Shown here: piece by piece, positions 25,645-61,687 of the stretch
Layout: each line of letters starts with the position of its first letter
Position numbering within the stretch: position 1 is the stretch's first letter
NCBI RefSeq assembly: GCF_018986915.1
Contig: NZ_CP076723.1
Span: forward strand, 2,575,501-2,639,500
From: Geomonas oryzisoli
GTDB taxonomy: Bacteria > Desulfobacterota > Desulfuromonadia > Geobacterales > Geobacteraceae
Direction: 5' to 3'
DNA: 64,000 nt
Made by a program: the position numbers and the translations under genes
Notes under the pieces: model-generated
Database searches by the model: none
Told to the model about the DNA's origin: nothing
Seen by the model: only the letters and a program-made list of their open reading frames with translations

Positions 25645-26796
25645 TCACAGCTTTCCCGTCAGCTTGGCAAGGATGACCACGACATCGCCGGTATCGACCT
25701 TGCCGTTGGGCTGTGACTGGCCGTTCAGATAGGGCGCCAGGTCCAGACGCAGAGTCTGCTCGATAGTGGGAGTGAGCTGGCCCGAGGCGATCTGCAGGGC
25801 GAGCTGCGCGTCTGCCAGCGTAAGCGGAGCGGGCCCCGAGGTTGAGGTTGAAGGAGTTGAGGTCGAGGGAGTTGAGCTCGAAGCGGTCTGGGTGGTGCCG
25901 TTATCTATGACGACGGTAGCCGAAGCGACGCCGCTGTTGCCGGCTGCATCATATGCCCGGGCGCTGATGAGGTGGCTGCCGTTGGCAAAGTTGGTGGTAT
26001 TCAGTATGTAACTAACCGGACTTTGGTTGCTGCTCAACAACACGGCACTGTCGATGGAAAGCTCGAGCTTGGCAACACCGACGTTGTCACTGGCGTTTGC
26101 CGATATGTTGATGGTCCCGGCTACCGTGGCATCGGCGGGAGGCACAGCCAGGGAAACTGTGGGCAAGATCACGTCCCCAGCCACGGAAACATTTACAGCT
26201 TTGGAGAGCGCCTCGTTTCCAGAGATGTCGACGGCTTTTGCCGCGATTGCGTAACTCCCGGCCGGCAGGGAGGCCGCATTCCAGATGTAGGTGTAGGGAG
26301 CGGCGGTCGCCTCGTAGACGGGAGAGCCGTTGACCAGGAACTGTACCTTGGCGATGCCGGCGTTGTCTGTTGCGGCGGCGCTGATGGCGACGGTTCCTCC
26401 CACCGTGGTGTTGTCGGTGGGCGAGGTCACGCTGACAACGGGCGGCAGTGTCTCGGGAACCTGCACAATATTGGAGTAGACGCTCTCCTGGCCGGTGGAG
26501 TCGTAAGCTGTCACGGCAAAGTAATAAGCATTGGCGGGGTCGAGACCAGTGATACTCGCCGTGGTGACGTTGCCGCCATCCACCGGGGCGCTTCCTTGGA
26601 CTGCCCCGGTCCCTTGGAACGGGAGGTTGGCACTGTTGGCCTGGTAGTAGATCCGGTAGCCGGCCAGGTCGGTGTCAGGGCTCGGGTCCCAAGCCAGTGT
26701 GACGCTGGTGGCAAGACAAGTGCCGGGGAAGGATAACAGCAGGAACAAAAACAGCGGTGCAACGGAGAACAACCCAGCTCTTCCGGATACTTCCAT
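25645..26796 (-). CDS. Secreted FN3 / Ig-repeat protein with C-terminal dockerin-like module
   Basis: 383 aa from the ATG at 26796 (GGGAG six bases upstream). A signal peptide (SVAPLFLFLLLSFPG) is followed by an FN3 domain with TLAWDPSPDTDLAGYRIYYQ, two Ig-like domains with DNAGIAKVQFLVNGSP-type strands, and a Ser/Thr linker. The tail has a first helix (LTLADAQLALQIASG) and a calcium-loop-like segment PNGKVDTGDVVVILAKLTG, the shape of a type I dockerin duplicate with one degenerate loop. The FN3 and Ig modules are paralogous to those encoded at 27118 and 31701. A GEMM riboswitch with a terminator lies in its leader. Confidence 0.8.
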   Translation of the reverse strand: MEVSGRAGLFSVAPLFLFLLLSFPGTCLATSVTLAWDPSPDTDLAGYRIYYQANSANLPFQGTGAVQGSAPVDGGNVTTASITGLDPANAYYFAVTAYDSTGQESVYSNIVQVPETLPPVVSVTSPTDNTTVGGTVAISAAATDNAGIAKVQFLVNGSPVYEATAAPYTYIWNAASLPAGSYAIAAKAVDISGNEALSKAVNVSVAGDVILPTVSLAVPPADATVAGTINISANASDNVGVAKLELSIDSAVLLSSNQSPVSYILNTTNFANGSHLISARAYDAAGNSGVASATVVIDNGTTQTASSSTPSTSTPSTSTSGPAPLTLADAQLALQIASGQLTPTIEQTLRLDLAPYLNGQSQPNGKVDTGDVVVILAKLTGKL

Positions 26797-26849
26797 CATT
26801 GGCTCCCAAGGATCGGCCTGTGCCCTGGGCGTTTTCTCGTGAAGGGGGA

Positions 26850-26904
26850 GAAAAAGAAAAGCCGGGACCGCAGCACCAGTACTTGGCATTTCGGCGACCC
26901 GGCT
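26850..26904 (-). terminator. Riboswitch-controlled intrinsic terminator (copy 1)
   Basis: On the minus strand AGCCGGG and CCG of the aptamer 3' side can pair with CGG and CCCGGCT further downstream, enclosing a CCA/TGG hairpin, and the helix is followed by TTTTCTTTTT. This pairing competes with the folded aptamer, so ligand binding should prevent termination (an ON switch). Confidence 0.75.
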
Positions 26905-26969
26905 GTCTCAGAGAGACCCTGTAGGCTTTCCGTCCCACCCTCGCGGATGGTTTAGTATTGTCGTGTACC
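26885..26969 (-). promoter_or_regulatory. GEMM-I (cyclic dinucleotide) riboswitch, A20 type, copy 1
   Basis: The minus strand has the GEMM-I core: AAACCATCC-GCGA-GGGTGGGACGGAAAG, then CCTACAGGG...GACAGCCGGGTCGCCGAAA. A short P1 (GGTA with TGCC) closes it. The base corresponding to Vc2 G20, three bases before AAACC, is A (complement of 26956). An A here is the hallmark of the Geobacter GEMM-Ib class that prefers 3',3'-cGAMP over c-di-GMP. It precedes the FN3/Ig/dockerin gene by ~90 nt. Ligand preference is inferred from this one base. Confidence 0.88.
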
Positions 26970-27117: not shown

Positions 27118-28257
27118 CTACCTCGATACCGAGACCGCCTTGCTCCCCTTGTTGCCGGCCGCATCGTAGGCGCAGACGGTCACGGTGTGGGTGCCGGCAC
27201 CGACCTTTGCCGAAGCACTGATTGACCCGGAGTTGGTCCCCAATAGCAGCACTCCGTCGACGTAGGCCTCCATCCTGACTACGGCCACGTTGTCCTGGGC
27301 CGTAGCGGCGATCTTCAGGTTGGCGTTGTTGAGTATGGGGGACGTGGGGGAAACGATGTTGACACTCGGGGGGACAAGGTCGTTGGCTACGGTCACGGTG
27401 ACGCTGGCGGAGCCTGCGTTCCCGGCGGCATCGGAGGCTATGGCGACCAGGGTATGGGAACCGTTCCCGGCGTTGGCGGTGTTCCAGTTGTAGTTGAGCG
27501 TTCCCTGGTTGGCGGCGTAGATGAGAGAGGAGTTGTCGTACAGGGCGAAACCGGTGACTCCGACGTTGTCGGTTGCGCTGGCGGTGACGGCCACGGTGCC
27601 GCTGACCTGCTTGTTGTTCCCCGGCGCCATGATGGTGACGGTCGGAACGGCCGTATCGCCGGCAACGAAGACCACTTCCTCGGCGCTCCCCACGTTGCCG
27701 GCCGCGTCGTACGCCTTGGCGGTGAGGGTGTACTGGCCGGGGGCGAGCGAGGCGGTGGGCCAGTTGAAGGTGTAGGGGGCGGAGTTGCCGCTGGCCTGAA
27801 GGCTCCCGTTCACGTAGAGCTCCACGTTGCTCACCCCGACATTGTCGGCGGCGCTGACCTGGACCGCGACCGAGCCGTTGACGGTCGTACTGGCAGAGGG
27901 GGACGTGATTGCCACGACCGGGGGGACCATCTCCTTCACCTGTACGACATTGGAGTAGACGCTTTCCGCACCCTTGGTGTCGTAGGCGGTAACCGCGAAG
28001 TAGTAGGAGCTGCCGGGATCGAGGCCGCTTATGGAAGCGGTGGTGCTTGTGGAAACGTCGACCGGGGCCGCCCCCTCCGCCGCACCGGTGCCGGCAAACG
28101 GCAGGGTCGAGTTGTTGGCCTGATAATAGACCCGGTACCCGGCGAGAGCGGGATCGGTGGAAGGATCCCATTGAAGGTTTACGGTCGAGGGGAAAGCTGC
28201 GACAGGAACAAGAACAAAGGCGAGCAGGAACTGCAGAATACACTGAGCTTTCAACAC
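27118..28257 (-). CDS. Secreted FN3 / Ig-repeat protein
   Basis: 379 aa from GTG at 28257; TTG at 28254 is also possible because GGAGG is only three bases before the GTG. Earlier starts would lie inside the riboswitch. A signal peptide (CILQFLLAFVLVPVAAFPS) leads into an FN3 domain (NLQWDPSTDPALAGYRVYYQ) and three Ig-like domains, each with a DNVGVS/TxxxLYxNxSL strand and an AYDAAGNxG strand. It has no dockerin tail or membrane anchor, so it is probably released or held by other means. It is likely an adhesin or matrix component, and its expression is probably set by the cyclic-dinucleotide riboswitch. Confidence 0.78.
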   Translation of the reverse strand: MLKAQCILQFLLAFVLVPVAAFPSTVNLQWDPSTDPALAGYRVYYQANNSTLPFAGTGAAEGAAPVDVSTSTTASISGLDPGSSYYFAVTAYDTKGAESVYSNVVQVKEMVPPVVAITSPSASTTVNGSVAVQVSAADNVGVSNVELYVNGSLQASGNSAPYTFNWPTASLAPGQYTLTAKAYDAAGNVGSAEEVVFVAGDTAVPTVTIMAPGNNKQVSGTVAVTASATDNVGVTGFALYDNSSLIYAANQGTLNYNWNTANAGNGSHTLVAIASDAAGNAGSASVTVTVANDLVPPSVNIVSPTSPILNNANLKIAATAQDNVAVVRMEAYVDGVLLLGTNSGSISASAKVGAGTHTVTVCAYDAAGNKGSKAVSVSR

Positions 28258-28294: not shown

Positions 28295-28344
28295 AAAAAA
28301 ACCGGGTACCGACCTGTAGTGCAGGTATTTCGGCGACCCGGCTG
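28295..28344 (-). terminator. Riboswitch-controlled intrinsic terminator (copy 2)
   Basis: On the minus strand CCGGGT-CG-CCG of the aptamer can pair with CGG-T-ACCCGG, with an inner ACCTG/CAGGT hairpin, followed by seven T. It overlaps the aptamer 3' strand, as expected of a ligand-relieved terminator. Confidence 0.82.
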
Positions 28345-28409
28345 TCTCAGGGAGACCCTATAGGCTTTCCGTCCCACCCTCGCGGATGGTTTAGTATTAT
28401 CGTGTACCT
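28323..28409 (-). promoter_or_regulatory. GEMM-I (cyclic dinucleotide) riboswitch, A20 type, copy 2
   Basis: It is nearly identical to copy 1 over ~80 nt (only a few substitutions: ATAATAC, CTATAGGG, CTCCCTGAG). P1 is AGGTA with TACCT. The base matching Vc2 G20 is again A (complement of 28395). It lies ~65 nt upstream of the start codon of the FN3/Ig gene at 27118-28257. Confidence 0.9.
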
Positions 28410-31633: not shown

Positions 31634-31700
31634 GGCGTAAATGTCAGACATACGCCACTGCAGAGAGACGGCTCCCCTCTCCTGCAGAAAGGAGCTGATC

Positions 31701-33773
31701 ATGCAGAGCCCAAACCTATTCCAACGCATCTCCAGACGCGCGCTCGGCCAAATACTGCTCGACGGTAAATTCGTGTCGAAGCGGGCCCTCAATCAAGCCA
31801 TCAGGGAACAAAAGACCACCCACGAACTCTTGGGAGGCGCCCTGGTCAGGATGGGGGTACTCAAGCCTGAGGACCTCGCCGCCCCGCTGCTGATTCAGCA
31901 GCACTTAAGCCACATCGAAGACGCCGTCAAGCTGGCTGCCGGCGACCGGCAGCTTCTGGGCGCCCTGCTGGTGCAGTCCGGGAAGATCACGATGCAGCAG
32001 CTCGACGAGGCGATCGCCGAGCAGAAGCGAACCGGGGAGCGCCTGGGCGAGGTATTCACGCGCCTCGGCATGCTGAGCGAACAGCAGCTGAAGGGGCTCC
32101 TTGACTGGCAGCAGAACCAGGGTAGCCCCACCAGCACGCCCCTCAGACTGGGCGAATTGCTCATCGCCACCGGGCACATCACCCGCAGCCAGTTGGAACG
32201 GGCACTCGCCAGGCAGAGCCAGACCGGCAAGAAGCTCGGTGATGTCCTGGTCGCCGAGGGGTATCTGCGCAGGAGCGAGGTCAACCGTGCGGTACGCCTG
32301 CAGAAGATGTGCGTCAACGCCGTCGTCGCCGCCATTATGGCCATGGGGATGAGCAGCGCGGCCTCCGCAGCCTCCGTCTCCCTGCAGTGGGACCCCTCCA
32401 CGGACGCCACCGTCGTCGGTTACAAGGTATATTACGAGACCGACTCCACGGCGGTACCGTTTCAGGGTGCGATACCGGTGGACGTCCAGAACATCACCTC
32501 CGCCACCATCGCCAATCTCGACCCGTCCCATTCCTACAGCTTCGCCATCACCGCTTATAATGCCGCAGGGGAAGAGAGTTCTTACTCGAACGTGCTGACC
32601 GTAGCCGAGATGCAGGCGCCTACCACCGCCATTACCTATCCGTCCAACTCGTCGACCGTAGCGGGGACAGTATCGGTCACGGCCGATGCCACTGACAACG
32701 TAGGGGTGACCAAGGTGGAGTTTTACGTGAACGGGGCGCTCGCCGCGACGGTCCCCACCTCGCCGTACGTCTATTCATGGAACACGGGCGCCCTTGCTCC
32801 CGGCAGTTACACCCTGACGACCAAGGCGTACGACGCAGCAGGAAACATCGGCCAGTCCCAGGGAGTAACAGTCAACGTTGCCAACGATCTGAGTGCCCCA
32901 TCGGTATCCCTCACATCTCCTGCAAACAACATGACGGTGAGCGGGTCGGTGAGCATCGCCGCCAACGCCACCGATAACGTCGGAGTGAGCAGAGTCGAGT
33001 TCTATCTGAACAACTCCCTCCTGACAGCCACCAACATGGCGCCCTACACCTACGCCTGGGACAGCAGGACCGTCCCCAACGGGGTCTATACGGTAACGGC
33101 AAAGGCGTACGACGCGGCCGGCAACCTCGGCCAGTCCCAAGTCCTGACCATCAACGTATCAAACGACCTCATCGCCCCAAGCGTCAGCCTGACCTCTCCG
33201 CTTTCCGGAGCCACGCTGACCGGCACCGTCACAGTCTCTGCCAGTGCAAGCGACAACGTGGGCGTGAGCAAGGTCGAGTTCTATCGGAACAACGTACTGC
33301 AGGCGACAGTCGCCACGGCACCCTACAGCTACAGCTGGACAACCACGAGCGTCGCCAACGGCAGCTACACGTTGACGGCCAAGGCCTACGATGCCGCAGG
33401 AAACGTGGCACAATCTCAAAACTCTACCGTCACGGTTTCCAATGACACTACCGCACCGACCGTCGCCATAACCTCACCGGCAACAGGAGCCGTGGTCAGT
33501 GGCACGATCAACGTAACCGTTAACGCAACGGACAATGTCGGCGTAAGCAAAGTGGAGTATTACCTGAGCGGCAAACTTATCGCGACCTCGTCGGTCGCCC
33601 CCTTCAGCAGCAGCTGGAACACGACGACGGTCACCGATGGAGGCTATACGCTTACAGCCAAGGCCTATGACGCGGCCGGCAACGTCGCTCAATCAAGCAA
33701 CACATCCGTTACCGTCAGCAACGGAACTACAGCGACGACTGCCGGCAAATCAGGGACCGTGAAGAAAAAGTGA
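31701..33773 (+). CDS. MshEN-repeat protein fused to FN3 and four Ig-like domains
   Basis: 690 aa from the ATG at 31701 (AAAGGAG six bases upstream). Residues 14-201 hold six 24-residue units of the MshEN type, such as RLGELLIATGHITRSQLERA at 149 and LLGALLVQSGKITMQQLDEA at 85; paired units in MshE bind c-di-GMP. A hydrophobic segment at ~204-219 ends in an AxA-like site (ASAAS), i.e. an internal signal peptide or membrane anchor. An FN3 domain (SLQWDPSTDATVVGYKVYYE) and four Ig-like domains follow, paralogous to those at 25645 and 27118. A cytoplasmic nucleotide sensor joined to an exported adhesin-like array is unusual; the fusion is in one uninterrupted frame. Confidence 0.8.
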   Translation: MQSPNLFQRISRRALGQILLDGKFVSKRALNQAIREQKTTHELLGGALVRMGVLKPEDLAAPLLIQQHLSHIEDAVKLAAGDRQLLGALLVQSGKITMQQLDEAIAEQKRTGERLGEVFTRLGMLSEQQLKGLLDWQQNQGSPTSTPLRLGELLIATGHITRSQLERALARQSQTGKKLGDVLVAEGYLRRSEVNRAVRLQKMCVNAVVAAIMAMGMSSAASAASVSLQWDPSTDATVVGYKVYYETDSTAVPFQGAIPVDVQNITSATIANLDPSHSYSFAITAYNAAGEESSYSNVLTVAEMQAPTTAITYPSNSSTVAGTVSVTADATDNVGVTKVEFYVNGALAATVPTSPYVYSWNTGALAPGSYTLTTKAYDAAGNIGQSQGVTVNVANDLSAPSVSLTSPANNMTVSGSVSIAANATDNVGVSRVEFYLNNSLLTATNMAPYTYAWDSRTVPNGVYTVTAKAYDAAGNLGQSQVLTINVSNDLIAPSVSLTSPLSGATLTGTVTVSASASDNVGVSKVEFYRNNVLQATVATAPYSYSWTTTSVANGSYTLTAKAYDAAGNVAQSQNSTVTVSNDTTAPTVAITSPATGAVVSGTINVTVNATDNVGVSKVEYYLSGKLIATSSVAPFSSSWNTTTVTDGGYTLTAKAYDAAGNVAQSSNTSVTVSNGTTATTAGKSGTVKKK

Positions 33774-33888
33774 ATTCGCGTCGGCGCTTCTCATGCCCAC
33801 CGATCCGGGAGATGCACTACACGCCTCACATCGTGGTATCAGGGCATCCAGGCAGACAGGCGAGCTACCCGACACAAGGAGGAAGCCA

Positions 33889-34749
33889 ATGAAAAACGTT
33901 ATTTTTTCTTTTGTGCTGTGTTTGATGGCGCAACTTATATTTCTAAGCAGCACCTCACATGCGGGCGTATTTTTCAAAGATGGGTTTGAATCCGGTGATA
34001 AAGCTCATACCGAGAATGGGGCGAAGTGGCTCTCATCGAGTTCAACCGTCACCATTTCAAGCGACATCGCACGGACAGGAAACAAGTCCATGAAGTTCCA
34101 TTTCGCCGGTGTACCTCTGGGGCAGGATGACGATGCCGAGCAGCGATTCTCACTAGGGAGCGCCAGACCGGATGTGTACATCCAGTACTATGTTTTCTTC
34201 CCCTTAAATTACGTCCACAGAAACGATTCCCCTACCAACAATAAAGCGATCATGCTATGGGACGAGGAGGCCAACTACACGTGGGCACGCGCCAAAATGG
34301 GAGCCCATCTCTGGTACAACTCCGCAGGCGACGCTTTGTCCCCATTCACCGGTCTGGACTTCAATTACTCTCCTCCGCAACTGACGTGCAAGACGGGGAG
34401 CGGTTCCAACACCTCCATTGACAGCATAAGCCTGGCAATATCCAATTTCGGCAAATGGACACTGGACAAGACATTCCTGGGAAGATGGCTCTGCTTCGAG
34501 TGGCACTTCAAACTGGATTCCGGAGCCGGCGACGGTGCTCTGGAGTTTTGGGTAGACGGCGTGAAGCAGTTCGGCCAGACCAACATGAAATGGAATGGCG
34601 CCCCCTGCTCTCCCGGCTATTTCAAGACGGGATACCTTTTCGGGTGGGCCAATTCCGGCTTTGACGTAGATACTGACATCTATGTCGATGACGTGACGTT
34701 CTCCGACATGTACATTCCCGTCGCCCCCAGAAACGTAATCAGACAATAA
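33889..34749 (+). CDS. Secreted concanavalin-like jelly-roll protein, possible polysaccharide lyase
   Basis: 286 aa with AAGGAGG before the ATG at 33889. A signal peptide (FSFVLCLMAQLIFLSSTSHA) is followed by a single beta-rich domain beginning GVFFKDGFESGD. Segments such as DVYIQYYVFFPLNYVH, WLCFEWHFKLDSGAGDGALE, FWVDGVKQFG and DTDIYVDDVTFSDMYI are typical of the LamG/polysaccharide-lyase jelly roll. I cannot pick out catalytic residues, so it may be a carbohydrate-binding protein rather than an enzyme. It sits between the MshEN-Ig gene and the end of the exopolysaccharide operon. Confidence 0.65.
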   Translation: MKNVIFSFVLCLMAQLIFLSSTSHAGVFFKDGFESGDKAHTENGAKWLSSSSTVTISSDIARTGNKSMKFHFAGVPLGQDDDAEQRFSLGSARPDVYIQYYVFFPLNYVHRNDSPTNNKAIMLWDEEANYTWARAKMGAHLWYNSAGDALSPFTGLDFNYSPPQLTCKTGSGSNTSIDSISLAISNFGKWTLDKTFLGRWLCFEWHFKLDSGAGDGALEFWVDGVKQFGQTNMKWNGAPCSPGYFKTGYLFGWANSGFDVDTDIYVDDVTFSDMYIPVAPRNVIRQ

Positions 34750-46888: not shown

Positions 46889-47542
46889 CTAGCGCTCCAC
46901 CGGCCAGTAGCCGGGGAGCAGGTTCATCACCTTTTCGGCGAATGCGCCGGTCGTCTTCTTGGCCGAAGGCACCATCGCATCGGGAGCCGCCATGTACACC
47001 TCGACGAACGCGCCGTCGTTGCGGTTTCGCAGCACGCGCCCCTTGAAGCGTTCCAGATTCTGCCGCCAACCGGTGGCGACCACCTTGGTTCCGGCGGTCT
47101 GGTACCAGTGCAGCATGACGGTGCTCGCCCCGTCTTTCCTTGCGAGGACGTAGTTCACCGGGACGGGCTCCGGCCTTCCCTGCTGTTTCAGGGTCACGGT
47201 CCCGGTGTCCACGATGGCAGCACCTGCGCCGGGAAGGCAGGCGTATGGGTTGTGCCCGGTGCGCCCCCCTTTGGCCGTGCCGTAGTAGCCAATATAGAGA
47301 GTGACGACCTGCCCGTCGGCGTTGCGGTAGTGGCGATAGACATGCTGGTCCGCGTTCAGCTCCCGGTACACCAGCTCCGGGAAGACATCGTCAATGCCCC
47401 GGTAATCGCCGATGGTCATGGGCAATTTCTCCAGGTTGGTCCGCACCACGACGACCCGGGGACGGGCCGCGATGAACCCGGCGGCGGTCCCGGCGCAAAC
47501 CAGCAGCACGAGTGCGAACAGGAAGACCTTAGTTCCGATCAT
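46889..47542 (-). CDS. epsI: Exosortase-associated protein EpsI
   Basis: 217 aa. One N-terminal membrane helix (KVFLFALVLLVCAGTAAGFI) and a periplasmic DUF3485 domain with YRGIDDVFPELVYRELNADQ, TLYIGYYGTAKGGRTGHNPY, ACLPGAGAAI and MLHWYQTAGTKVVA. EpsI is required with the exosortase for exopolysaccharide or PEP-CTERM function in XrtA-type systems; its exact biochemical role is unknown. It overlaps the exosortase gene by 14 bp. Confidence 0.92.
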   Translation of the reverse strand: MIGTKVFLFALVLLVCAGTAAGFIAARPRVVVVRTNLEKLPMTIGDYRGIDDVFPELVYRELNADQHVYRHYRNADGQVVTLYIGYYGTAKGGRTGHNPYACLPGAGAAIVDTGTVTLKQQGRPEPVPVNYVLARKDGASTVMLHWYQTAGTKVVATGWRQNLERFKGRVLRNRNDGAFVEVYMAAPDAMVPSAKKTTGAFAEKVMNLLPGYWPVER

Positions 47543-48368
47543 GGGACACCTTCCTGGTAAGCAGCAGGTGGATCATCCAGAGCATGAGCAACCCGAATGC
47601 GAAAACCGCCAGACCGGAGAAATCGTGCAGGAAGCCGCGGGCGACCCTGTCGCCGAAATAGTTGGCCAGTATGCCGGTCCCGCTGATCCGGATGATGTTG
47701 GCAGTCATGGCGATGGGGACCGCCGCGACCACGATGAGCGCCCGCCGTTGCCAGCCGACCGGGGCCAGGTAGGCGAATATCGAACCCAGCATGGTGAGCG
47801 ACATGATCGACCTGATGCCGCTGCATGCCTCCGCGACCTCGAGCTGCGTCCCCACGAAGTAAAGCATGTTCCCCTCGCGGTACACCGGGATGGCGCACAT
47901 CTGGATGATCCAGGCGGAGAGCCGTGTGGCGATCAGCTGCAGCGGCATCGAGACGAGACTCATCACCGAGTAGGGAACCGGGACCATGAAGAGCAGGAAC
48001 AGGACCGGGAAGGCCATGACCCGGATCCACGCGTTGCCCAGACAGAACCAAAGGAGGCCGAAGAGGGACGCCACCATGGCTATGCGCGCCGGGAAAGCGG
48101 CCCCGCCCGCGAAGCTCACGAGGTAGATCGCCAGGCTCGCTGCGAGGATAACGCCTCCCCACTTGGCACAGTCGATCTCCCCCGCGCTAAGTTCGCCCTT
48201 TTGGTGCCACAGGAAGTAGAGCGTCACCAACGGGACCAGGAAGCCATGGTTGTTGTCGGAATGGCTACCCCACTCCCCCACCATCTCCGGCACGATGGGT
48301 GAGAAGACCGCTAACCAGAGGGCGACCAGCAACGAGAGCTTTATCTTGTCGTTTCGCGATAAAGGCAT
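47529..48368 (-). CDS. xrtA: Exosortase (XrtA-type)
   Basis: 279 aa from the ATG at 48368 (GGAGAG seven bases upstream); an ATG at 48383 would add five residues. About eight membrane helices carry the transpeptidase triad: Cys182 in VAEACSGIRS, Arg227 in TANIIRISG and His248 in RGFLHDFSG. The enzyme recognises the PEP motif and C-terminal helix of PEP-CTERM proteins, cleaves them and probably passes them to an acceptor. Candidate substrates are at 61688 and 63342. Confidence 0.94.
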   Translation of the reverse strand: MPLSRNDKIKLSLLVALWLAVFSPIVPEMVGEWGSHSDNNHGFLVPLVTLYFLWHQKGELSAGEIDCAKWGGVILAASLAIYLVSFAGGAAFPARIAMVASLFGLLWFCLGNAWIRVMAFPVLFLLFMVPVPYSVMSLVSMPLQLIATRLSAWIIQMCAIPVYREGNMLYFVGTQLEVAEACSGIRSIMSLTMLGSIFAYLAPVGWQRRALIVVAAVPIAMTANIIRISGTGILANYFGDRVARGFLHDFSGLAVFAFGLLMLWMIHLLLTRKVSHDRN

Positions 48369-48394
48369 GCAGATTCTCTCCATGAACCCTCAGT

Positions 48395-49591
48395 TCAACG
48401 GGCCCGGTACGACTCCCGCACCAGCCCCAGCAGATCCTCGAGGTCGCGCATCCTTACGTACGGGTGCAAAGGTATCGTCACCAACCGGTGCGCCACCTGT
48501 TCGGCGCAGGGAGCGGCGCAGGCCGCCATGCCCCGCAGTTGCGGGATGTTCGGGACGGCGTCCGGGTAGGCCGTTGCCGCCCCCAGCCCGGCCGCTTCGC
48601 TTTTTTCGATCAACCACCGCCTCTGCTCCCCATCCTCGAGCAGAACGGGAAACCTGATCAGGTTGGCGAGCGCCCCCCCGAGAGGGGCCGGCACCTCGAG
48701 CCCCGCCCGCTCCAGGACGGCCGCACGCTCAAGACGCGCCGCGCGCATCCGGGCCAGTTTGTCCTGCCACCCAAGCGTCAGCCCCGCCTGAAACGCGCCC
48801 AGCCGTTTGATCCCGAAACCGGGTTCGAAGGTGGTGTCCCCTATCCCGAGGAACGGCAGGGCCTTGGGAAGCCAGAACAGGCCGGGGCGGACCAGGACAC
48901 AGAGCACGAGCGCGTAGCAAAGGGCCGTCACACCATCGATCCACCCTTCACGCGGCAGCGCCCCGGTGATCCGCCCTATGGCAGCGCCCAGTCGCGCGTC
49001 CCCCGTCAGGATGATGCCGCCGGAAACGGTGGAGAGGGCCTTGCCGCGCCCCAGGCTGAAGAGCGCGACGTCCCCGAGGGTGCCGAGCTTTCTTCCCCCG
49101 GCCTCTCCCCCCATGGCCTGGGCCGCATCCTCGACCACCGCGACCCCGTACCGGGAAGCGGCCCGCCTGAGCCGCTCCACGTCGGCGGGAAGGCCGAAGA
49201 GGTGGGTGGAAACCGCGCACAGGACACGCCCCCCGGCCAGGGCCTCTTCGAGCTTCGCCCAGTCGAAATCGAGCGTGCGGGGATCGATATCGCAGGGGCG
49301 CACCTTGAGCCCGGCCCTCACCACCGCCGCGGGGACCGAGTAGCAGGTGTAGGCGGGGATGAGGACCTCGTCCCGGCCCGCGCCGGTTTCCTTAAGGGCG
49401 GACAGGATCACGGCGAGGGCCGCCTTCCCGGAACTGAGCAGGAAGACGTGGGGCATGTCGTAGTACCGCTTCAGCTCCTCCTCGAACCTTTCGAGGGCCT
49501 TGTCGCCCGAGAAAAAGGCCCGGACGCCGCAGAGGATTTCCCTCAAGGATAACGGTGTGGCTGCCGGGGGAAGAGTTCTGCCGATGCGCAT
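48395..49591 (-). CDS. DegT/DnrJ/EryC1/StrS-type PLP aminotransferase
   Basis: 398 aa. Motifs of the family: VFLLSSGKAALAVILSALKE, VLIPAYTCYSVPAAVVRAGL, VVEDAAQAMGGEAGGRKLGT, and FSLGRGKALSTVSGGIILTG, where the Lys is the likely PLP-binding residue. It probably makes an amino sugar for the exopolysaccharide. A membrane-like stretch (ALCYALVLCVLVRPGLFWL) in the small domain is unusual for the family but also seen in exosortase-linked members. It lies 26 bp upstream of the exosortase start. Confidence 0.85.
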   Translation of the reverse strand: MRIGRTLPPAATPLSLREILCGVRAFFSGDKALERFEEELKRYYDMPHVFLLSSGKAALAVILSALKETGAGRDEVLIPAYTCYSVPAAVVRAGLKVRPCDIDPRTLDFDWAKLEEALAGGRVLCAVSTHLFGLPADVERLRRAASRYGVAVVEDAAQAMGGEAGGRKLGTLGDVALFSLGRGKALSTVSGGIILTGDARLGAAIGRITGALPREGWIDGVTALCYALVLCVLVRPGLFWLPKALPFLGIGDTTFEPGFGIKRLGAFQAGLTLGWQDKLARMRAARLERAAVLERAGLEVPAPLGGALANLIRFPVLLEDGEQRRWLIEKSEAAGLGAATAYPDAVPNIPQLRGMAACAAPCAEQVAHRLVTIPLHPYVRMRDLEDLLGLVRESYRAR

Positions 49592-49603
49592 GGGACCGCT
49601 CCT

Positions 49604-50638
49604 CTAAGGTATGTTCCTCACGATGGGGGGACCCAGGATTCTGGTGAGCGCGACCGGCAGCCTCTGCCACCCCTTCACCGCGAGACGGAACTTCGGGTTG
49701 GCGGGGTTGAGCTCCGGAGGCCTCACGCCGTCTGCCAGGAGGTACTGCCAGTAAAGGGGGACCGGCTCAGCGCCCCACTGCCTCTTGAAGTGGTAGGTCC
49801 CCTCCCCCGGGGTCGAGCGCCCGAAGTCGAACTGTCGCGCCCCCGCACCGATGGCGAGCCTGATGGCCTCCCAGTAGAGCATGTTGTTGGGGCAGCAGTC
49901 CCGGAAGTCACGGTTGGAGGAGGCCCAGGGTACCTCGACCGTGTCCCGGAAACGGGTCATGATGCCGGAGGCGATGGTCTCGCCGTCCGCAAGCACCGAG
50001 ATGACCCGTGCCTGGGCGTCCCGGGCCTCCAGCACGTTCTCGAAAAACGCCCGGCCGTACACCGGTGTCCCAAGGTCGCGCATGTTGCGGCAGAACACCC
50101 GGTAGAACCCGTCCAGCAGCTCCCGCCCCCCCGTGGCGACCTGCAGCCCGCTTTTTTGCGCCTTGCGCACCTGGTTGCGCAGCTTGGGGCCGAAGCTCCC
50201 CCACTGGCCGTCCGGGTCGGCGGCGAGGTCCAGGATCATGGTGACCTTGTGACTGCGGGTAGCCAGCCCGGGGAGGGGCTCCCCCAGGTGACGAAGCTCG
50301 AGGTAGGACGCGCCGCGTTCGGCCATGAGCCGCTCCCCCTCCGCCAGGAGCGCGTCCCGCGCGGCGGGGTCGCTGCAGAGCACCCCGCCGTAGTTGAAGA
50401 AGGGGACCGAAACCAGGAAGCTGCCAAAGAGCATGCTTTTCATATGGACGACCGGGAGCACCCCCACGGTCGTGCCGCCGGAATGGGCCAAGAGGTAATG
50501 CCCCGGGTGCCCGAAACTCTCCTCCAGCACCCGCCTCCAGAAGTAGCGGTGGTAGCTGGTCGCGGCCGGGTGGGAGCAGACGAAGCGGTCCCACTCCTGT
50601 CCGTCCCCACGGTAGCGCTCGACCGAGACCACGTTCAT
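49604..50638 (-). CDS. FemAB-related protein, exosortase/PEP-CTERM-associated
   Basis: 344 aa from the ATG at 50638 (ATGA overlap with the deacetylase stop). A GNAT-fold FemAB domain: SYHRYFWRRVLEESFGHPG, FNYGGVLCSD, FGPKLRNQVRKAQKSGLQ and DFGRSTPGEGTYHFKRQWG. FemAB-like enzymes add amino acids to cell-wall or glycan acceptors; in XrtA clusters the acceptor is unknown. Conserved order with the deacetylase and aminotransferase supports the assignment. Confidence 0.88.
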   Translation of the reverse strand: MNVVSVERYRGDGQEWDRFVCSHPAATSYHRYFWRRVLEESFGHPGHYLLAHSGGTTVGVLPVVHMKSMLFGSFLVSVPFFNYGGVLCSDPAARDALLAEGERLMAERGASYLELRHLGEPLPGLATRSHKVTMILDLAADPDGQWGSFGPKLRNQVRKAQKSGLQVATGGRELLDGFYRVFCRNMRDLGTPVYGRAFFENVLEARDAQARVISVLADGETIASGIMTRFRDTVEVPWASSNRDFRDCCPNNMLYWEAIRLAIGAGARQFDFGRSTPGEGTYHFKRQWGAEPVPLYWQYLLADGVRPPELNPANPKFRLAVKGWQRLPVALTRILGPPIVRNIP

Positions 50639-51525
50639 GAGTACACCCCGGTGATCTCGGCGAGGGGCTTTTCCCCTCCTGCCCCCGACAGCGCCTCGCT
50701 CATGGTGCCGAAGCGGATCCCCGACAGCAGTTGCCGCAGCTTCCCCTCCGTCTTGGCAAGGTTCAGATAGTGCCGGAACCGGGACTTCATTCCCGCGCGG
50801 ATGCGCGGCTGGTCCGGGTCCATCTCCCAGGGGTGGAAGTAGAGCACCGCGGGCTCCCCTTCCCTGGCGTTGATCGCGTCTATGCAGCGGCCGAGCAGGG
50901 AGGCCGGGAAGAGCCTCAGGTACCCTCCCCCCGCCACCGGCAGCAGGAACTCCCGCCCCGCCAACCGGAGGGGGTAGGTGCTGAGGGGAAACTCCCGGAT
51001 CACCCCCGAGGGGCGGCGTATGAGATGCGGAAAACGCGGCGCACCCGGCAGACCGTAGATGTCGTGGTAGACCGGGAAGATGCTCGAGTCGAAGCGGAAC
51101 CCCTCCTCGATCAGGATGTCCAGCGCCCAGAGCGACCGCCTCGTTATCGAGTAGCTGGGCGCGCGGTAGCCGACCACCTGGTCGCCGGTGATGTCCTCCA
51201 ACAGCGCCTTGGCGCAGCGCACGTCCTCGCGGAACCTCTGCGGCCCGATGCGGTAGACGAGTTCGTGGCCGAAACCGTGGCAGGCGATCTCGTGCCCCCG
51301 GTCCCGCACCTCCCGCACCAGGTGCGGGCAGCGCCTGGCCACCCAGCCGAGGATGAAGAAGGTCCCCCTGACGCCGAATGAATCGAACAGGTCCAGCACC
51401 CGCGCCGTGTTCCCCTCCACCCTGAGCGGGTACTGGTCCCACCTGTCCCGTTCCACGTACGGATCGAAGGCGGAAACCTGGAAGTAGTCTTCCACATCGA
51501 CGGTGAGGGCGTTCACGACGTTCAT
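50635..51525 (-). CDS. XrtA-system polysaccharide deacetylase
   Basis: 296 aa. The NodB-like domain has ALTVDVEDYFQVSAFDPYVE (catalytic and metal-binding Asp residues), HEIACHGFGHELVYRIGP with the metal-binding His pair, VVGYRAPSYSITRRSLWAL and FHPWEMDPDQPRI. The VDVEDYFQ start is characteristic of the exosortase-associated subfamily (DUF3473 C-terminus). It overlaps the upstream barrel gene and downstream FemAB gene. Confidence 0.92.
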   Translation of the reverse strand: MNVVNALTVDVEDYFQVSAFDPYVERDRWDQYPLRVEGNTARVLDLFDSFGVRGTFFILGWVARRCPHLVREVRDRGHEIACHGFGHELVYRIGPQRFREDVRCAKALLEDITGDQVVGYRAPSYSITRRSLWALDILIEEGFRFDSSIFPVYHDIYGLPGAPRFPHLIRRPSGVIREFPLSTYPLRLAGREFLLPVAGGGYLRLFPASLLGRCIDAINAREGEPAVLYFHPWEMDPDQPRIRAGMKSRFRHYLNLAKTEGKLRQLLSGIRFGTMSEALSGAGGEKPLAEITGVYS

Positions 51526-52763
51526 CTGGTCAGCCTCATCTCCACGATCACGCGGTTTGCCTCGACTCCCCCCAGTGTGCTCCCAAAGCTGTTGCGATAG
51601 GTGATGTAGGTGTAGTTGGTGCCAAGCACCACGTGATCGCCGAGGGAATAGTCCAGACCGACCCCACCGGTCATGTGGTAGGGGTACTCCGAGCCTCTGT
51701 GTCCCTGCAGACGGTCCCCGGAAAGGTTCATAGTCATGGCAAGAACCGGGAGCAGCTCGTAGCGGCCGTTCAGGCCGAGATAGATCTTTTTCTGCACCTC
51801 CCCCGCGGCCCGCTGCTGCTTGTCGAACTTGGAGTAGGAGGCGTTGAAGCCCGCCGACCCGCGCGAGAAGCTGCGGTTCAGGGAGGCGTAATGGGTGACG
51901 GTCCTCGTGATGATGGTCTGCGGGTCCTCGGCGTACTGCACCTTGGTTCCGGCAGCCGCGTTCACCACTCCGAAGTCATGCCCGGCACCTACGTCCCAGA
52001 AAGGGTTGTTCATGCTGGCGCCGTTGTCGAAGCGCTGCCAGTCGTAGCCCAGGTTACCGTAGATAAAGGTACCGGGGCGGTAGTCATAGCGCAGCCCGGC
52101 ATATACCTGGTGCAGATCGAGGTTGTTCATGCTGGTAGTGACGCGGGCGTAGCTGTAATAGGTGCTGAAGACAAGCCCTTCCTTCACCTCTTTGCTCCAG
52201 GTGGCGAAACCGTCATGCTCTTGTTTGTCGATCCCCAGTCCGCTCCAGTAGCGGGTGTCGCGGTAGCGGTAGCCGGTCTTCAACGAGGAGTCGCCGGGAA
52301 GGCGCCACGTCACGTAGGGGGATATCAGCGCGTTGTTCTGCAGGGTCTGATTCACCACCAGGCTCTCGGTGACCACATCGCGCACCACGTCGGTCGACAC
52401 ACGGCTGTAGCTGTCCGAGAGGTCCAGGTGGAGGAAGTCATCCAGGAACTTGAAGGCTCCCGTCATGGAGGCGCGGTGATCGAATTCGTCGCTTCGGCTT
52501 CCCTTGGCGAAGTAGCGGTAATCGATGCCGTAGGAAAGAGCCGCGGCGAACCCGCCCCCGTCGGCCTTCAGGGCGAGGTTGGGCTGGACCCGGGTCACGT
52601 AATCGGTGACCGGACTGCGTGCGTTCTGGAACAGGTTGTCGTTGTACTCCTGACCGACGACGAGCGACGGGGTGAACCGGTAATCGGCGGCCAGCGCCGG
52701 GGCCCCGGTGGAGAGCGCCGCCACAGAGGCCAGGCAGGTGATGCCTAAGAGAGCGTTTCTCAT
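51522..52763 (-). CDS. Outer-membrane beta-barrel protein, PEP-CTERM system-associated
   Basis: 413 aa. A signal peptide ending APALA is followed by ~390 residues of alternating strands (DYRFTPSLVVGQEYNDNLF, SLKTGYRYRDTRYW, FIYGNLGYDWQRFDNG, ending NRVIVEMRLTR). The content fits the outer-membrane protein always found next to the XrtA ATPase and deacetylase, probably part of the secretion pore or a polysaccharide-anchoring barrel. Overlaps the ATPase stop by 4 bp. Confidence 0.88.
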   Translation of the reverse strand: MRNALLGITCLASVAALSTGAPALAADYRFTPSLVVGQEYNDNLFQNARSPVTDYVTRVQPNLALKADGGGFAAALSYGIDYRYFAKGSRSDEFDHRASMTGAFKFLDDFLHLDLSDSYSRVSTDVVRDVVTESLVVNQTLQNNALISPYVTWRLPGDSSLKTGYRYRDTRYWSGLGIDKQEHDGFATWSKEVKEGLVFSTYYSYARVTTSMNNLDLHQVYAGLRYDYRPGTFIYGNLGYDWQRFDNGASMNNPFWDVGAGHDFGVVNAAAGTKVQYAEDPQTIITRTVTHYASLNRSFSRGSAGFNASYSKFDKQQRAAGEVQKKIYLGLNGRYELLPVLAMTMNLSGDRLQGHRGSEYPYHMTGGVGLDYSLGDHVVLGTNYTYITYRNSFGSTLGGVEANRVIVEMRLTR

Positions 52764-53914
52764 TTCTTGCCTCCCATGCCTACCCCGTCCATGAGACGCC
52801 GCGCAAACCCCGCGGCGGGACGGTCCGGCGCAGAAAGAGCCAGCCCCTGCACGGCGCTGGAGACCGTGGCGAGCCTCTCACCCAATTCGGCGACCCGCCG
52901 GTCCTGCTCCGCGGCCCGGTGGGAGAAGTCGGCCTGCATCTTGTGCATGGTCTCCGCGACGCTCTTCAGGGCCTGGGGAAGCCTCGCGGAGAGCTCGTCC
53001 TCCATGGCCTCCAGACGCCGCTCGATGCGCCCCAGGAGCTCCTCCCCCGCTTTACCGCCGGGAAGGGCGCCCTCGGGAGGGAGGTCGGGACCTCCCCCCC
53101 AGTAGGTCCTCTCGAAGTCGAGGTCGGCCCCCACCTCCTCGGTCATCTGCGCGGTGACGGTGCGGACCTCGTCCGCGAAGGCGGCCAGCATGAGAAAATC
53201 GCAGATGATGTTCACTAGGCGCGGGATGCCGCGGCTGAAGCGGTAGATGAGCTCCACGGCCTCCTCGGTGAAGTGGACCGCCTCGGGGTTGCCGGCGACC
53301 TTCATGCGGTGCAGGATATAGGCCCGGGTCTCCTCCAGGGACAGGGCGTGCAGGTGGCAGCTCACGCTGATGCGCTGGCGCAGTTGCATGAGCCCTGGGC
53401 TCGCCATGGTGTCGCGCAGCTCGGGCTGCCCCACCAGGATGATCTGCAAAAGCTTGTTGTGCGAGCTCTCCAGGTTGGAGAGCAGGCGCACCTCCTCGAG
53501 CAGGCCGGCCTCCAGGTTCTGTGCCTCGTCGATGATCAGGATCGGGTGGTTGCCGGCGGCGTACTGATCGAGCAGGAAGTCGTTCAGGTCCCTGAGCAGG
53601 GAGACCTTGTCCTTGCCCGCCGCGTCCATGCCGAATTCCTCGTTGATCATGGCCAAAAGCTGCTCGATGCTGACCCGGGTGTTGAACACCTTGGCGAGCA
53701 CCACGCGCTCGTACTTCTTGCCGATCAGGTCGCGGATCAGCGTGGTCTTGCCGCTCCCCACGTCGCCGGTCAGAAGGAGAAAGCCCGCCCGCTCCCTGAT
53801 GCCGTAGTCGAGGTAGGTGACCGCCTTGCGGTGCGACCGGGAGAGATAGATGAAATCGGGGTCGGGCACCAGTTCAAATGGTTTCTTTGCAAAGCCGAAA
53901 AATTCCAAGTACAT
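52760..53914 (-). CDS. XrtA/PEP-CTERM system AAA ATPase (ExeA-like)
   Basis: 384 aa. It begins MYLEFFGFAKKPFELVPDP, typical of ExeA/GspA-like ATPases. Walker A LLTGDVGSGKTTLIRDL and Walker B HPILIIDEAQNLEAG lie in the first 150 residues. The C-terminal part has a coiled-coil stretch (ELSARLPQALKSVAETMHKM). It likely energises assembly of the envelope export machinery together with the barrel encoded next. Confidence 0.92.
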   Translation of the reverse strand: MYLEFFGFAKKPFELVPDPDFIYLSRSHRKAVTYLDYGIRERAGFLLLTGDVGSGKTTLIRDLIGKKYERVVLAKVFNTRVSIEQLLAMINEEFGMDAAGKDKVSLLRDLNDFLLDQYAAGNHPILIIDEAQNLEAGLLEEVRLLSNLESSHNKLLQIILVGQPELRDTMASPGLMQLRQRISVSCHLHALSLEETRAYILHRMKVAGNPEAVHFTEEAVELIYRFSRGIPRLVNIICDFLMLAAFADEVRTVTAQMTEEVGADLDFERTYWGGGPDLPPEGALPGGKAGEELLGRIERRLEAMEDELSARLPQALKSVAETMHKMQADFSHRAAEQDRRVAELGERLATVSSAVQGLALSAPDRPAAGFARRLMDGVGMGGKK

Positions 53915-53932
53915 GATCTGTCGCCTCGCTGG

Positions 53933-54784
53933 TTACGGCGCCCCCTGGTAATGCTTGTAGTAGGAGTAGCGCTCCCCATGCCCAACGTCGTCGGCGCCGT
54001 TGTACACCACCCCCAGGAGCCCGGGTCCCTTCACCGCCTCGTACGCCTCCAGGAGCTCGTCCTGGGAAGGAAGCCGCTCCCTCACCACCAGGAGCACCCC
54101 GTCGACGATGTTGGCCAAGACCCGGCTCTCCGCGAAGGGGAGCAGCGGGGGCGTATCGAAGATCAGGTAGCGGTCCGGGTAGCGGTGTTTCAACTCGTCC
54201 ACAAGGACACGCATCTTCTGCGAGGTGAAGAGCTCCACGGGGTTTTCCACCCGGCTCCCGGAGCGGATCAGGGAGAGCTTGCCCAGGCCGGTCTGCACGA
54301 TGGCCTGCGGGATCTCCGCCGTCCCCTTCAGGATGTCGGCAAGCCCCACCCCCTGCTCGATCTCGAGGTAGTGGTGCAGCGAGGGGCGGCGCAGGTCGGC
54401 GTCGACCAACAGCACGGTGTGGTCCAGCCCCTGGGCCAGGCTCACCGCAAGGTTCAGGGCGGTCAGGCTCTTCCCCTCGCCGGGAACGGAGCTCGTCACC
54501 ATGATCGCGTTTTTGAAGGGCTCCCCGTCGGTCAGCTTGACCAACACCGACTTCAACTTGCGGTACTCCTCGGCCGCCGGGCTGTGGGGATCGAGGAGGT
54601 TCACCAGGAAGGGATGCTTGGGCGCCAGCACCCGCTCGGGGGGGACCGTCGGCGGCACGCCGGCCGGGGCCTGCGTGTGAACTGAACGGTCGACCTCGGC
54701 CGCGCTCCCATCGCCCGGTTGCTGCGGGATCCCTTCCTTTCTCAGCTGGGCGGCTTTTTCCATCGCCATTTCTATTCTGCTCAT
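53933..54784 (-). CDS. CpsD/CapB-family tyrosine autokinase
   Basis: 283 aa. The BY-kinase core has Walker A TSSVPGEGKSLTALNLAVSL, Walker A' LLVDADLRRPSLHHYLEIEQ and Walker B RYLIFDTPPLLPFAESRVLA. The C-terminus contains a short tyrosine cluster (GERYSYYKHY) that could be the autophosphorylation site. With the chain-length protein at 54837 it controls polymer length and export in Wzx/Wzy systems. Confidence 0.92.
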   Translation of the reverse strand: MSRIEMAMEKAAQLRKEGIPQQPGDGSAAEVDRSVHTQAPAGVPPTVPPERVLAPKHPFLVNLLDPHSPAAEEYRKLKSVLVKLTDGEPFKNAIMVTSSVPGEGKSLTALNLAVSLAQGLDHTVLLVDADLRRPSLHHYLEIEQGVGLADILKGTAEIPQAIVQTGLGKLSLIRSGSRVENPVELFTSQKMRVLVDELKHRYPDRYLIFDTPPLLPFAESRVLANIVDGVLLVVRERLPSQDELLEAYEAVKGPGLLGVVYNGADDVGHGERYSYYKHYQGAP

Positions 54785-54836
54785 AGATAACCTCTCTGCC
54801 GCCGCTCCCCCCTCGCGCGGGGTGGGCGGGGCGTCG

Positions 54837-56324
54837 CTAGTGCATCATCCCCTTGATCCCCTGGCTGACCGGCGCCAGGTGGTCCAAAAGCCTGTCCATG
54901 TAGGGCAGATCGAGAAGTTCCATGGCCGGGAACACCAGCAGGAGCAGGAAGTACAGGGCCGCCCCGGCGAAGATGCGCAGCGATCTCCTGCGCAGCTTCA
55001 GCGCCTGCGGCAGGTCCAGCATGCGCGGCACCACGGCCAGCACCGGCACCCCCAGCCCCTTCACCATGGAGACCTCCTTCACCGACCCGTCCAACTGGTC
55101 GCGCAGCGCCAGGAAGCCGAGCCCCCCCGCCACTCCGGCGAGTATGCCCGCGAGCATGATGATGAGCCGGTTGGGACTCGACGGCTTCACCGGGAGTACG
55201 GCCGGATCGACGATGCGGAAGGTGGTGGACTTGTCCTGCACCTCCATCTGCTTGGAGACCTCGGACTGGCCGTGCCTGGAATAGAGCTGGTCGTAGATCT
55301 TCTTCTGGTTCTCGCGCTCCACTTCGAGCTTCGCGAGTCCCGCCTTGGCGGTCGGGATGCTCTGCAGGGTCTGCTTGCTCTGGGATATGTAGCGCCTAAG
55401 CCCCGCCTCCGCGTTCTTCAAGGCGGTGACCTCGGACTCGATCTTGGCCAGCTCCTGCGGGTCCAGGGGCTGCGGTTCCGCCCCCTTTCTCGCCTTGAGC
55501 TGCTCCTTGACCGTCTCGATGTCGCTCTTCACGGTGAGGACCTCGGGGTAGCTGTCGGTGTACTGCACCCTCAGGTCGTCCAGCCTTTTTTGCAGCGCGA
55601 GCAGCTTGGACTGCAGGGGGTCGTTGGCCTTGCGGGTCGCCTGGCGCATCCCCTCCAGCTGCCTGCGCCTGAGCTCCAGGTCGTAGAGCTTTTGCTGGGC
55701 CAGGTTGATCTCCTCGAAGAGTTTCCCCTCGTCGATGGAGATGATCCCCCCCTTCTCGCGCTTGTAGGCGTTCAGGTCGTTCTCGGCTTTCTGCAGCTTC
55801 ACGTTGAAGGCGGAGATCTGCTCGGAGAGGAACTTGGTGGCGTCGTAGGACTCGCCCCTCTTGGAGGAGGTGTTCTGCTCGATGTACAGCCGCACCAGGG
55901 TGTTCACGAAATCGCGCGAAATCCTCGGGTCGGAGTGCACGAAGGAGATGATGAAGAGGTTGTTCTTCTCCTTCACCTTCACCGTGATGTTCTTTTGCAG
56001 CTCCTTGATGAGCTCCTCGTTGTTCGCCTCCTTGCCGAGGTTCATGTCCAGGCTCTCCATGGTCTTGGTGAGCAGGGCGCGGCTGGTGATGGCATAGGTG
56101 AGGACGTTGATGGTGTCTTCCATGGAGGGGGTCACGGTGATCCCCTTGACCAGCTCGCTGATCACGTTTTTCTCGATGAAGACCGTGCTCGACGACTCGT
56201 ACTTGCGGGGCAGGAGGTAACTCACCGCGAAGACGACGGTCATGATGACGAGGGCGCAAAGGACGTAGAGCTCCTTGTGCCGGGCCACGAGCTGCATGTA
56301 TTTCCTGTATTCGGATTCCTGCAC
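54837..56324 (-). CDS. XrtA-system polysaccharide chain-length determinant (Wzz family)
   Basis: 495 aa. Two membrane helices (near residues 17-38 and near ~400-420) flank a long periplasmic coiled-coil region (VKLQKAENDLNAYKREKGG through LEVERENQKKIYDQLYSRHG). The proline-rich second helix motif VLPVKPSSPNRLIIMLAGIL is typical of Wzz/PCP proteins. An extra C-terminal membrane hairpin (ALYFLLLLVFPAMELLDLPY) fits the PEP-CTERM subfamily. It lies 52 bp upstream of the tyrosine kinase gene. Confidence 0.92.
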   Translation of the reverse strand: MQESEYRKYMQLVARHKELYVLCALVIMTVVFAVSYLLPRKYESSSTVFIEKNVISELVKGITVTPSMEDTINVLTYAITSRALLTKTMESLDMNLGKEANNEELIKELQKNITVKVKEKNNLFIISFVHSDPRISRDFVNTLVRLYIEQNTSSKRGESYDATKFLSEQISAFNVKLQKAENDLNAYKREKGGIISIDEGKLFEEINLAQQKLYDLELRRRQLEGMRQATRKANDPLQSKLLALQKRLDDLRVQYTDSYPEVLTVKSDIETVKEQLKARKGAEPQPLDPQELAKIESEVTALKNAEAGLRRYISQSKQTLQSIPTAKAGLAKLEVERENQKKIYDQLYSRHGQSEVSKQMEVQDKSTTFRIVDPAVLPVKPSSPNRLIIMLAGILAGVAGGLGFLALRDQLDGSVKEVSMVKGLGVPVLAVVPRMLDLPQALKLRRRSLRIFAGAALYFLLLLVFPAMELLDLPYMDRLLDHLAPVSQGIKGMMH

Positions 56325-56340
56325 GGCTACCCCCTTGAGC

Positions 56341-57147
56341 TTAGAAAAAGGCTTCCTTCACCAGGACGTAATCCCCGGCCTTCAGGTCGATGTTCTGGGA
56401 GAGATCCCCCTCCTTGAAAAGCTTCTTGGCCTTGACCTCCAGGGAGCGGGACTGCTCCCCCTCCTTCCTCCTGACCACCACGTCGTTCTGGTCGGCGAAC
56501 TTCGTGAAGCCCCCCGCCTCCAGGATGGCCTCCATCACCTTCATCCCCTCGCGGTACTCGATGGACTTGGGCATGTTGACCGCCCCGAGGACGTAGACGC
56601 TGCGGTCGGTCAGAAGCGGCACGAACAGCGAGTCGTTGGTCTCGATCACCAGGTCCTGGGTGGTGTCCCCCTGGATGAAGAGGCGGTGCAGGTCGACCTT
56701 CAGCTTCTTGCCGTCGCGCAGCAGGTACGCGTTTCTCAGGTCGGCCGTCTTCACCTCCGGGAGCATGCACAAAAGCTGCAGCAGCGTGGTGCGCCGGGAC
56801 AGGTCATAGACGTTGGCCTTGACGCCGGAGCCGAAGATGTAGACCTTGGAGTTGGTGATCTCGCGCACCGTGACGGTCACGATGGGATTTTTCACCAGTT
56901 CCTTGAGGCGCCCGGCCAGGTGGGTCTGCAGCTGGCTCGGCGTGCTGCCGCTGGCGACCACCTCGCCCAGGCCGGGGACGGTGATCTTGCCGTCGGGGCG
57001 CACCCGCACCGGGAAGTTCAGTTCCTTCACGCCCCAAACGGCGATGTCGAGGGCGTCCCCCTCGCCGATGACGTAGTCCCCCCCAAAAACCGACAACGGG
57101 AAGCTGCAAAGGACCAACAGCAACAACAGCCAGTACCTCATCCTCAT
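56341..57147 (-). CDS. Polysaccharide export protein (Wza-like), XrtA-associated
   Basis: 268 aa. A signal peptide (YWLLLLLVLCSFPLSVFGG) precedes the Poly_export domain (DYVIGEGDALDIAVWGVKEL, VRVRPDGKITVPGLGEVV) and two SLBB-like domains (NSKVYIFGSGVKANVYDLSR and DRSVYVLGAVNMPKSIEYRE). It forms the outer-membrane/periplasmic channel for the exopolysaccharide. No clear lipobox. 17 bp after the sugar transferase gene. Confidence 0.92.
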   Translation of the reverse strand: MRMRYWLLLLLVLCSFPLSVFGGDYVIGEGDALDIAVWGVKELNFPVRVRPDGKITVPGLGEVVASGSTPSQLQTHLAGRLKELVKNPIVTVTVREITNSKVYIFGSGVKANVYDLSRRTTLLQLLCMLPEVKTADLRNAYLLRDGKKLKVDLHRLFIQGDTTQDLVIETNDSLFVPLLTDRSVYVLGAVNMPKSIEYREGMKVMEAILEAGGFTKFADQNDVVVRRKEGEQSRSLEVKAKKLFKEGDLSQNIDLKAGDYVLVKEAFF

Positions 57148-57164
57148 GACATCCTCCTTTCACC

Positions 57165-58547: not shown

Positions 58548-58598
58548 AAGATGCCGTACCGTTTCTCCCCATGCCAGCGCCCGTCGGCGGGAGCGCTG

Positions 58599-61244: not shown

Positions 61245-61381
61245 TGCCAACCTCCAGACAGCTCTGACGGCGTCCACAGTAAATTAGATACAATTAAAAC
61301 TTTCTAACACACTCTTAGCAGAATGGCTTTCACTTTTCAAGCTAATTCTCAGGCCACTGCGGCTTGGGCTGTGAGTAAAAA

Positions 61382-61506: not shown

Positions 61507-61618
61507 CAGCAGCGGCACGATTCGGAAGTTGTCTCCCTGTCGAATATTTTTACACATGGCGGCGACGCTGCAAGCTTGAACGGCGTTTCAGAAGCCTATG
61601 TTAGCGATTTTTAACATA

Positions 61619-61634: not shown

Positions 61635-61687
61635 CTAGCCGCTGTCACATTTGAATTTGTTAACTAAACCAACAAAAGGAGACAAAA

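Follow-up and report, generated by a model that had tools for sequence, protein, structure and literature searches.

The gene analysed here encodes a protein of 690 residues and occupies positions 31701..33773 of the forward strand in a 64,000-nucleotide stretch of the Geomonas oryzisoli genome, referred to below as the window. Its ATG at 31701 is supported by a ribosome binding site, AAAGGAG (31688..31694, +), which ends six bases 5' of the start and recurs in the same or very similar form in relatives. The anatomy of the protein is near certain. Three MshEN modules come first (residues 14-66, 85-137 and 149-201; 31740..31898, 31953..32111 and 32145..32303, all +), followed by a predicted signal peptide (residues 202-223, cut after A223; 32304..32369, +), and then by the payload. 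The latter consists of an FN3 domain (32373..32600, +; Pfam PF00041, E=3.7e-11, with FN3 matches also in Foldseek) and four Big_7 Ig-like domains with approximate limits (32613..33719, +; Pfam PF17957, E=2.2e-83, four stretches). FN3/Ig repeats of this kind are found in bacterial adhesins, but the C-terminus of the fusion contains no outer-membrane anchor or sorting signal, and the protein is not classed as an adhesin. An FN3/Ig surface or matrix protein would fit the locus.

The locus is an XrtA/PEP-CTERM exopolysaccharide cluster (window 46889-62329), with exosortase, EpsI, chain-length determinant, tyrosine kinase, export protein, PrsT and one PEP-CTERM protein (61688-62329). Just 3' of the fusion lies a gene for a polysaccharide-lyase-like exported protein (33793-34749, +). 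In several other Geomonas, the gene next after the fusion is preceded by a GEMM-I riboswitch, unlike 33793-34749, for which none was found in the window; none was found for the fusion gene itself either. GEMM-I aptamers (RF01051) are present upstream of two FN3/Big_7 paralogues that lack the MshEN leader. One, at 28329..28405 (-), precedes the paralogue at 27118..28254 (-, estimated TTG start at 28254), and the other, at 26890..26966 (-), precedes the paralogue at 25645..26889 (-, longest open reading frame, with a true start probably further in). Behind each aptamer comes a hairpin with a T run that resembles a terminator, in front of the gene. A scan for sigma-54-like motifs gave no more matches than expected by chance.

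The preliminary description had recognized six 24-residue repeats of the c-di-GMP-binding type at residues 14-201. The motifs (residues 14-37, 43-66, 85-108, 114-137, 149-172 and 178-201) are genuine, as the NCBIfam model NF053729 ('cyclic di-GMP-binding domain-containing protein, MshE-related') matches the fusion three times (E=2.1e-46, 155.5 bits against a cut-off of 38), which rules out repeats by chance. However, they do not make six binding units. They are paired with a spacer of exactly five residues, so that there are three 53-residue MshEN_N modules, all supported by NF053729 and the motif alignment, the second also by a phmmer search against the PDB, and the third also by a structure model. 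The phmmer search with the fusion found PilF (1.9e-17) and MshE (5HTL, 2.6e-7). The NCBIfam models for NfrB and EpsG gave sub-threshold cross-hits in the fusion; the EpsG, NfrB and PilB models share the MshEN module. Pfam did not report MshEN for the leader, and returned only DUF4388 and FumaraseC_C cross-hits below the cut-off, which may explain why the leader is easily overlooked.

Conservation within the motifs suggests that the leader modules are likely to bind c-di-GMP. In MshE, the third-position glycine is essential, and the leucine positions matter (Wang et al., PMC5013675). All six motifs of the fusion retain this glycine and the glutamine at position 24, and have leucine, or isoleucine or valine instead, at positions 17 and 21. 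The motif Gly, Leu and Gln residues are near-invariant in the 65 full-length leaders described below. Motif 1 keeps the Gly and Leu positions least well, whereas module 3 is the nearest to consensus. Position 1, where both motifs of the domain characteristically have arginine, is occupied by Ala/Leu in module 1, Leu/Arg in module 2 and Arg/Lys in module 3; motifs 1-3 thus lack arginine there, and module 1 has neither Arg nor Lys at either motif start. The GSPII-B domain of PilF has Lys and Leu at position 1, yet it binds c-di-GMP 83-fold tighter than MshE, while serine at this position abolished binding in a GSPII-A construct. Modules 3 and 2 are the likely binding sites, and it is doubtful that module 1 is a c-di-GMP binder.

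A model of residues 140-224, comprising module 3 and the signal (mean pLDDT 78.6), has the four-helix MshEN_N fold. Module 3 superimposes on the crystal structures of c-di-GMP-bound MshE (5HTL) and PilF-GSPIIB (8PFA) with 0.5-0.9 Å over 53-55 residues at 36-48% identity, although the Foldseek E-values of these matches are only 4e-3 and above. A single uninterrupted helix, the last in the model, connects module 3 with the signal and spans residues 52-84 of the modelled piece (about residues 191-223 in the full protein), with confidence dropping across the signal (pLDDT about 82, 71 and 51 over the last three blocks). A larger model (residues 1-300) was too weak, and Foldseek recovered FN3 but not the MshEN fold from it. 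Fumarase C ranked next behind MshE and PilF among the fold matches of the smaller model, with an rmsd of about 2 Å. Together with the Pfam cross-hit, this match hints that the MshEN_N and FumaraseC_C domains may share a fold.

Within the genus, which was assigned as Geomonas through named loci, the same in-frame fusion is kept at full length in 11 of 19 genomes, at 69-85% identity. An artefactual fusion is ruled out by its recurrence in 11 species, and the earlier claim of a real in-frame fusion is confirmed by this search of relatives. The absence of the fusion from the other 8 of the 19 genomes counts against the explanation that we favor below. FN3/Big_7 proteins that have an ordinary signal but no leader occur in other Geomonas, and in the present genome a signal follows the modules in only one of 16 MshEN open reading frames examined, namely the fusion. 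One Geomonas genome contains two loci (L038 and L039, 1500-3491, +) that are identical copies and are located after a NusG/RfaH-like gene. Their MshEN array is truncated, and close to where its reading frame stops, an exported beta-helix protein begins in a different frame. They were considered as evidence for two separate genes, and rejected as a broken or rearranged relative.

Beyond the genus, we searched 277 genomes from the class and 395 from the phylum with a profile that covered the leader and its signal, and aligned the matching open reading frames. In this sample, limited in depth to Desulfobacterota and to the best few candidates per genome, there are 65 full-length leaders in 49 genomes and nine families, with three or four copies in some genomes. 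Four further proteins, one of which is truncated at a contig end, have only one module each, which brings the total to 69. The design is not unique to the fusion gene; according to these alignments it is a widespread leader module in front of several kinds of payload. Five payload classes occur with the full-length leaders: FN3/Big_7 proteins (31), doubled-CxxCH cytochromes (9), CAP domain proteins (6), lipoproteins of unknown family with a lipobox cysteine at +22 (3), and a beta protein of about 130 residues in chaperone-usher loci (16 proteins, of which one is truncated at a contig end). The 77 neighbors of the last class include 26 SCPU proteins, 8 ushers and 7 PapD-type chaperones. No plasmid-borne relatives were found. 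In a separate record (L139:2-976, +) that starts inside a gene, one MshEN module is followed by a lipobox and by a domain that, by eye, resembles a LapG-type (transglutaminase-like) cysteine peptidase.

The signal of the fusion begins at residue 202 rather than at the protein N-terminus, and is therefore called internal. It has a basic n-region (R199/K202), a hydrophobic core (203-217) and an A-x-A motif (A221-x-A223), and this predicted signal peptide, KMCVNAVVAAIMAMGMSSAASA, abuts the last motif glutamine (residue 201) without any spacer. The same holds for all 65 full-length leaders, in which a hydrophobic signal directly follows the motif-6 glutamine. In the leader family proteins, the strongest hydrophobic stretch starts 1-6 residues past the end of the array, which is a motif glutamine, except for a histidine in one protein. 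An alanine is present at +22 in 51 of the 69 proteins, every time with a small residue at -3, and the three lipoprotein relatives have their lipobox cysteine there. The fixed distance and the interchangeable sites for signal peptidases I and II argue for cleavage, and the payload should then be cut from the leader. The segment thus looks like a cleavable signal peptide and not an anchor. Of the 'signal/anchor' segment in the preliminary description, only the signal is retained, and the lasting covalent join between sensor and adhesin that it proposed does not agree with these sites. We regard it as very unlikely that an uncleaved type II signal anchor makes the fusion an inner-membrane protein that reports c-di-GMP across the membrane via the FN3/Ig rod. 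A cytoplasmic N-terminal domain ahead of a hydrophobic segment is normal type II topology, but the segment is short, its c-region is signal-like, and the anchor would leave the A-x-A and lipobox conservation unaccounted for.

Judging from their distribution, leaders and payloads were most likely reshuffled by recombination or exchange. The payload label requires six or seven changes on the leader tree, and a tree with the FN3 leaders constrained to one clade was rejected (p-AU 0.015, an indicative value, as the grouping was picked after the first tree had been seen). The cytochrome and CAP payload families are also found without the leader. A leaderless homologous cytochrome is encoded in a 233-aa open reading frame (genome G000), and the CAP protein of one genus occurs in a 434-aa open reading frame with leader in one genome (G191) versus a 232-aa open reading frame in another (G190).

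Leaderless payload homologues could also mean that the leader has no regulatory role, and is either a tolerated N-terminal extension or mostly bypassed by an internal start near the signal. A methionine at +2 in 45 of the 69 leader proteins makes an internal start conceivable in some members. As the true start it is unlikely, since the methionine is not conserved and the window has no ribosome binding site at usable spacing before it. The leader is under purifying selection much like the FN3 domain (dN/dS about 0.12, the median of pairs with finite dS, versus 0.11), and it has been retained over nine families while the payloads were swapped. Both observations speak against a leader without a regulatory role, which we consider highly improbable.

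There is, in our estimate, an even chance that residues 1-223 serve as a c-di-GMP-sensing export leader, i.e. a cytoplasmic pro-region that tunes export and is removed by signal peptidase. The three MshEN_N modules would adopt their fold in the cytoplasm, with the hydrophobic core of a cleavable Sec signal peptide prolonging the final helix of module 3. As the last predicted c-di-GMP-contacting residue, the glutamine, immediately precedes the signal, the ligand could hold or release it. Binding of c-di-GMP at module 3 would then alter the presentation of the signal to SecA or the translocon, and set the amount of payload that is exported. Signal peptidase I (or II in the lipoprotein relatives) would free the payload, and the leader would stay in the cytoplasm, or attached to the inner membrane through what is left of the signal. 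We infer that the leader gates export, and lean towards binding promoting it. Among the options named in the preliminary description (export, cleavage or anchoring), export is the one that fits best. The mechanism assumes that Sec tolerates the folded cytoplasmic extension of 200 residues. Such an extension ahead of a signal is unusual, which counts against the export leader.

The modules and the cleavage site would also suit a gene with two products, in which cleavage is routine and export of the payload unregulated. The leader would then act as a membrane-tethered c-di-GMP receptor for another target, e.g. exopolysaccharide or pilus machinery, and the fusion would fix the ratio of the two. 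The position of the gene in an exopolysaccharide locus and the module shared by the EpsG, NfrB and PilB models agree with this alternative. It appears unlikely, however, since one leader type precedes unrelated payloads that suggest no obvious common target, and since the missing spacer to the signal is left unexplained. Alternatively, the MshEN modules with c-di-GMP might steer the preprotein to a particular export site or machine (the pole, the exopolysaccharide complex or a chaperone-usher locus product), instead of setting its amount. The chaperone-usher and exopolysaccharide neighborhoods are compatible with such targeting, but no common partner was found among the neighbors of FN3-class leader genes outside Geomonas, and we consider this reading distinctly unlikely.

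If the export-leader reading applies, the leader could be a portable unit set before different exported proteins. In its broader form, as a ligand-gated signal peptide that would make Sec export of any cargo c-di-GMP-dependent, and a protein counterpart of the riboswitch that is stacked in some genes on a cGAMP-type GEMM-I, the proposal is, in our view, slightly less probable than not. A GEMM-I aptamer lies directly upstream of four leader genes on the same strand (L092:4823-4897, -; L097:2697-2772, -; L101:4874-4949, -; L099:3838-3914, +), and control of each of these genes by two messengers is possible. In the loci L143-L145 and L111, two aptamers lie 3' of the leader gene, before the next genes on that strand. 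At least one GEMM-I was present in 11 of 55 other loci scanned. An adenine at position 20 makes GEMM-I riboswitches prefer cGAMP, and the A20G exchange switches one of them to c-di-GMP (PMC6456294). Both window aptamers have A20 and are by this signature of the cGAMP type (GEMM-Ib). MshE binds c-di-GMP with a KD of 5e-7 M, but cGAMP only weakly, with 3.3e-4 M (PMC5013675), so that leader and riboswitch probably read different messengers.

Parts of the proposed design have precedents. In NfrB and EpsG of exopolysaccharide systems, MshEN modules are tied to polysaccharide synthesis. These proteins are enzymes with cytoplasmic output, and to our knowledge no cleavable export signal follows their MshEN modules. 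In Bradyrhizobium FbcH, as predicted for the fusion, an internal signal is cleaved behind an N-terminal part, but FbcH has no ligand-binding leader. The ways of c-di-GMP control of surface proteins that we are aware of act through transcription, riboswitches, secretion ATPases or proteolysis. MshE (5HTL) and the GSPII domains of Thermus PilF have the same two 24-residue motifs, 5-residue spacer and fold (PMC5013675, PMC11731258, PMC12002112), and PilF, like the leader, has three such domains in succession. Receptors of this type act on a cytoplasmic ATPase, glycosyltransferase or signaling domain, whereas in the fusion a Sec signal peptide and an exported payload follow; the leader also lacks the MshEN_C subdomain between modules. 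The GEMM-I riboswitches of Geobacter, which are present on the window paralogues, place single cytochrome, pilus or surface genes under control of a cyclic dinucleotide (PMC6456294). They act on RNA before translation and here probably read cGAMP, whereas the leader is a protein and a predicted reader of c-di-GMP. In the control of large adhesins by LapD/LapG (PMC3032553), what becomes of an exported surface protein depends on the c-di-GMP state of the cytoplasm, as proposed for the leader. However, the receptor LapD is a transmembrane protein in its own right and acts by controlling proteolysis, whereas the leader would place the receptor within the precursor. A literature search, with most subscription journals outside its reach, found no published description of MshEN modules with signal peptides or of such fusions.

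The same modules and signal in front of unrelated exported proteins suggest that these bacteria may use c-di-GMP to control protein export itself. If this is true, a receptor in the pro-region would provide direct control of export, one protein at a time, and could be moved to other cargo. Where the leader is stacked on GEMM-I, two different cyclic dinucleotides would be required, one for expression and one for export. Exported proteins of metal-reducing bacteria that are otherwise unrelated, namely cytochromes, CAP proteins and chaperone-usher components, would then also be candidates for a role in regulation. Finally, the leader loci make a division of labor between c-di-GMP and cGAMP in surface attachment testable.
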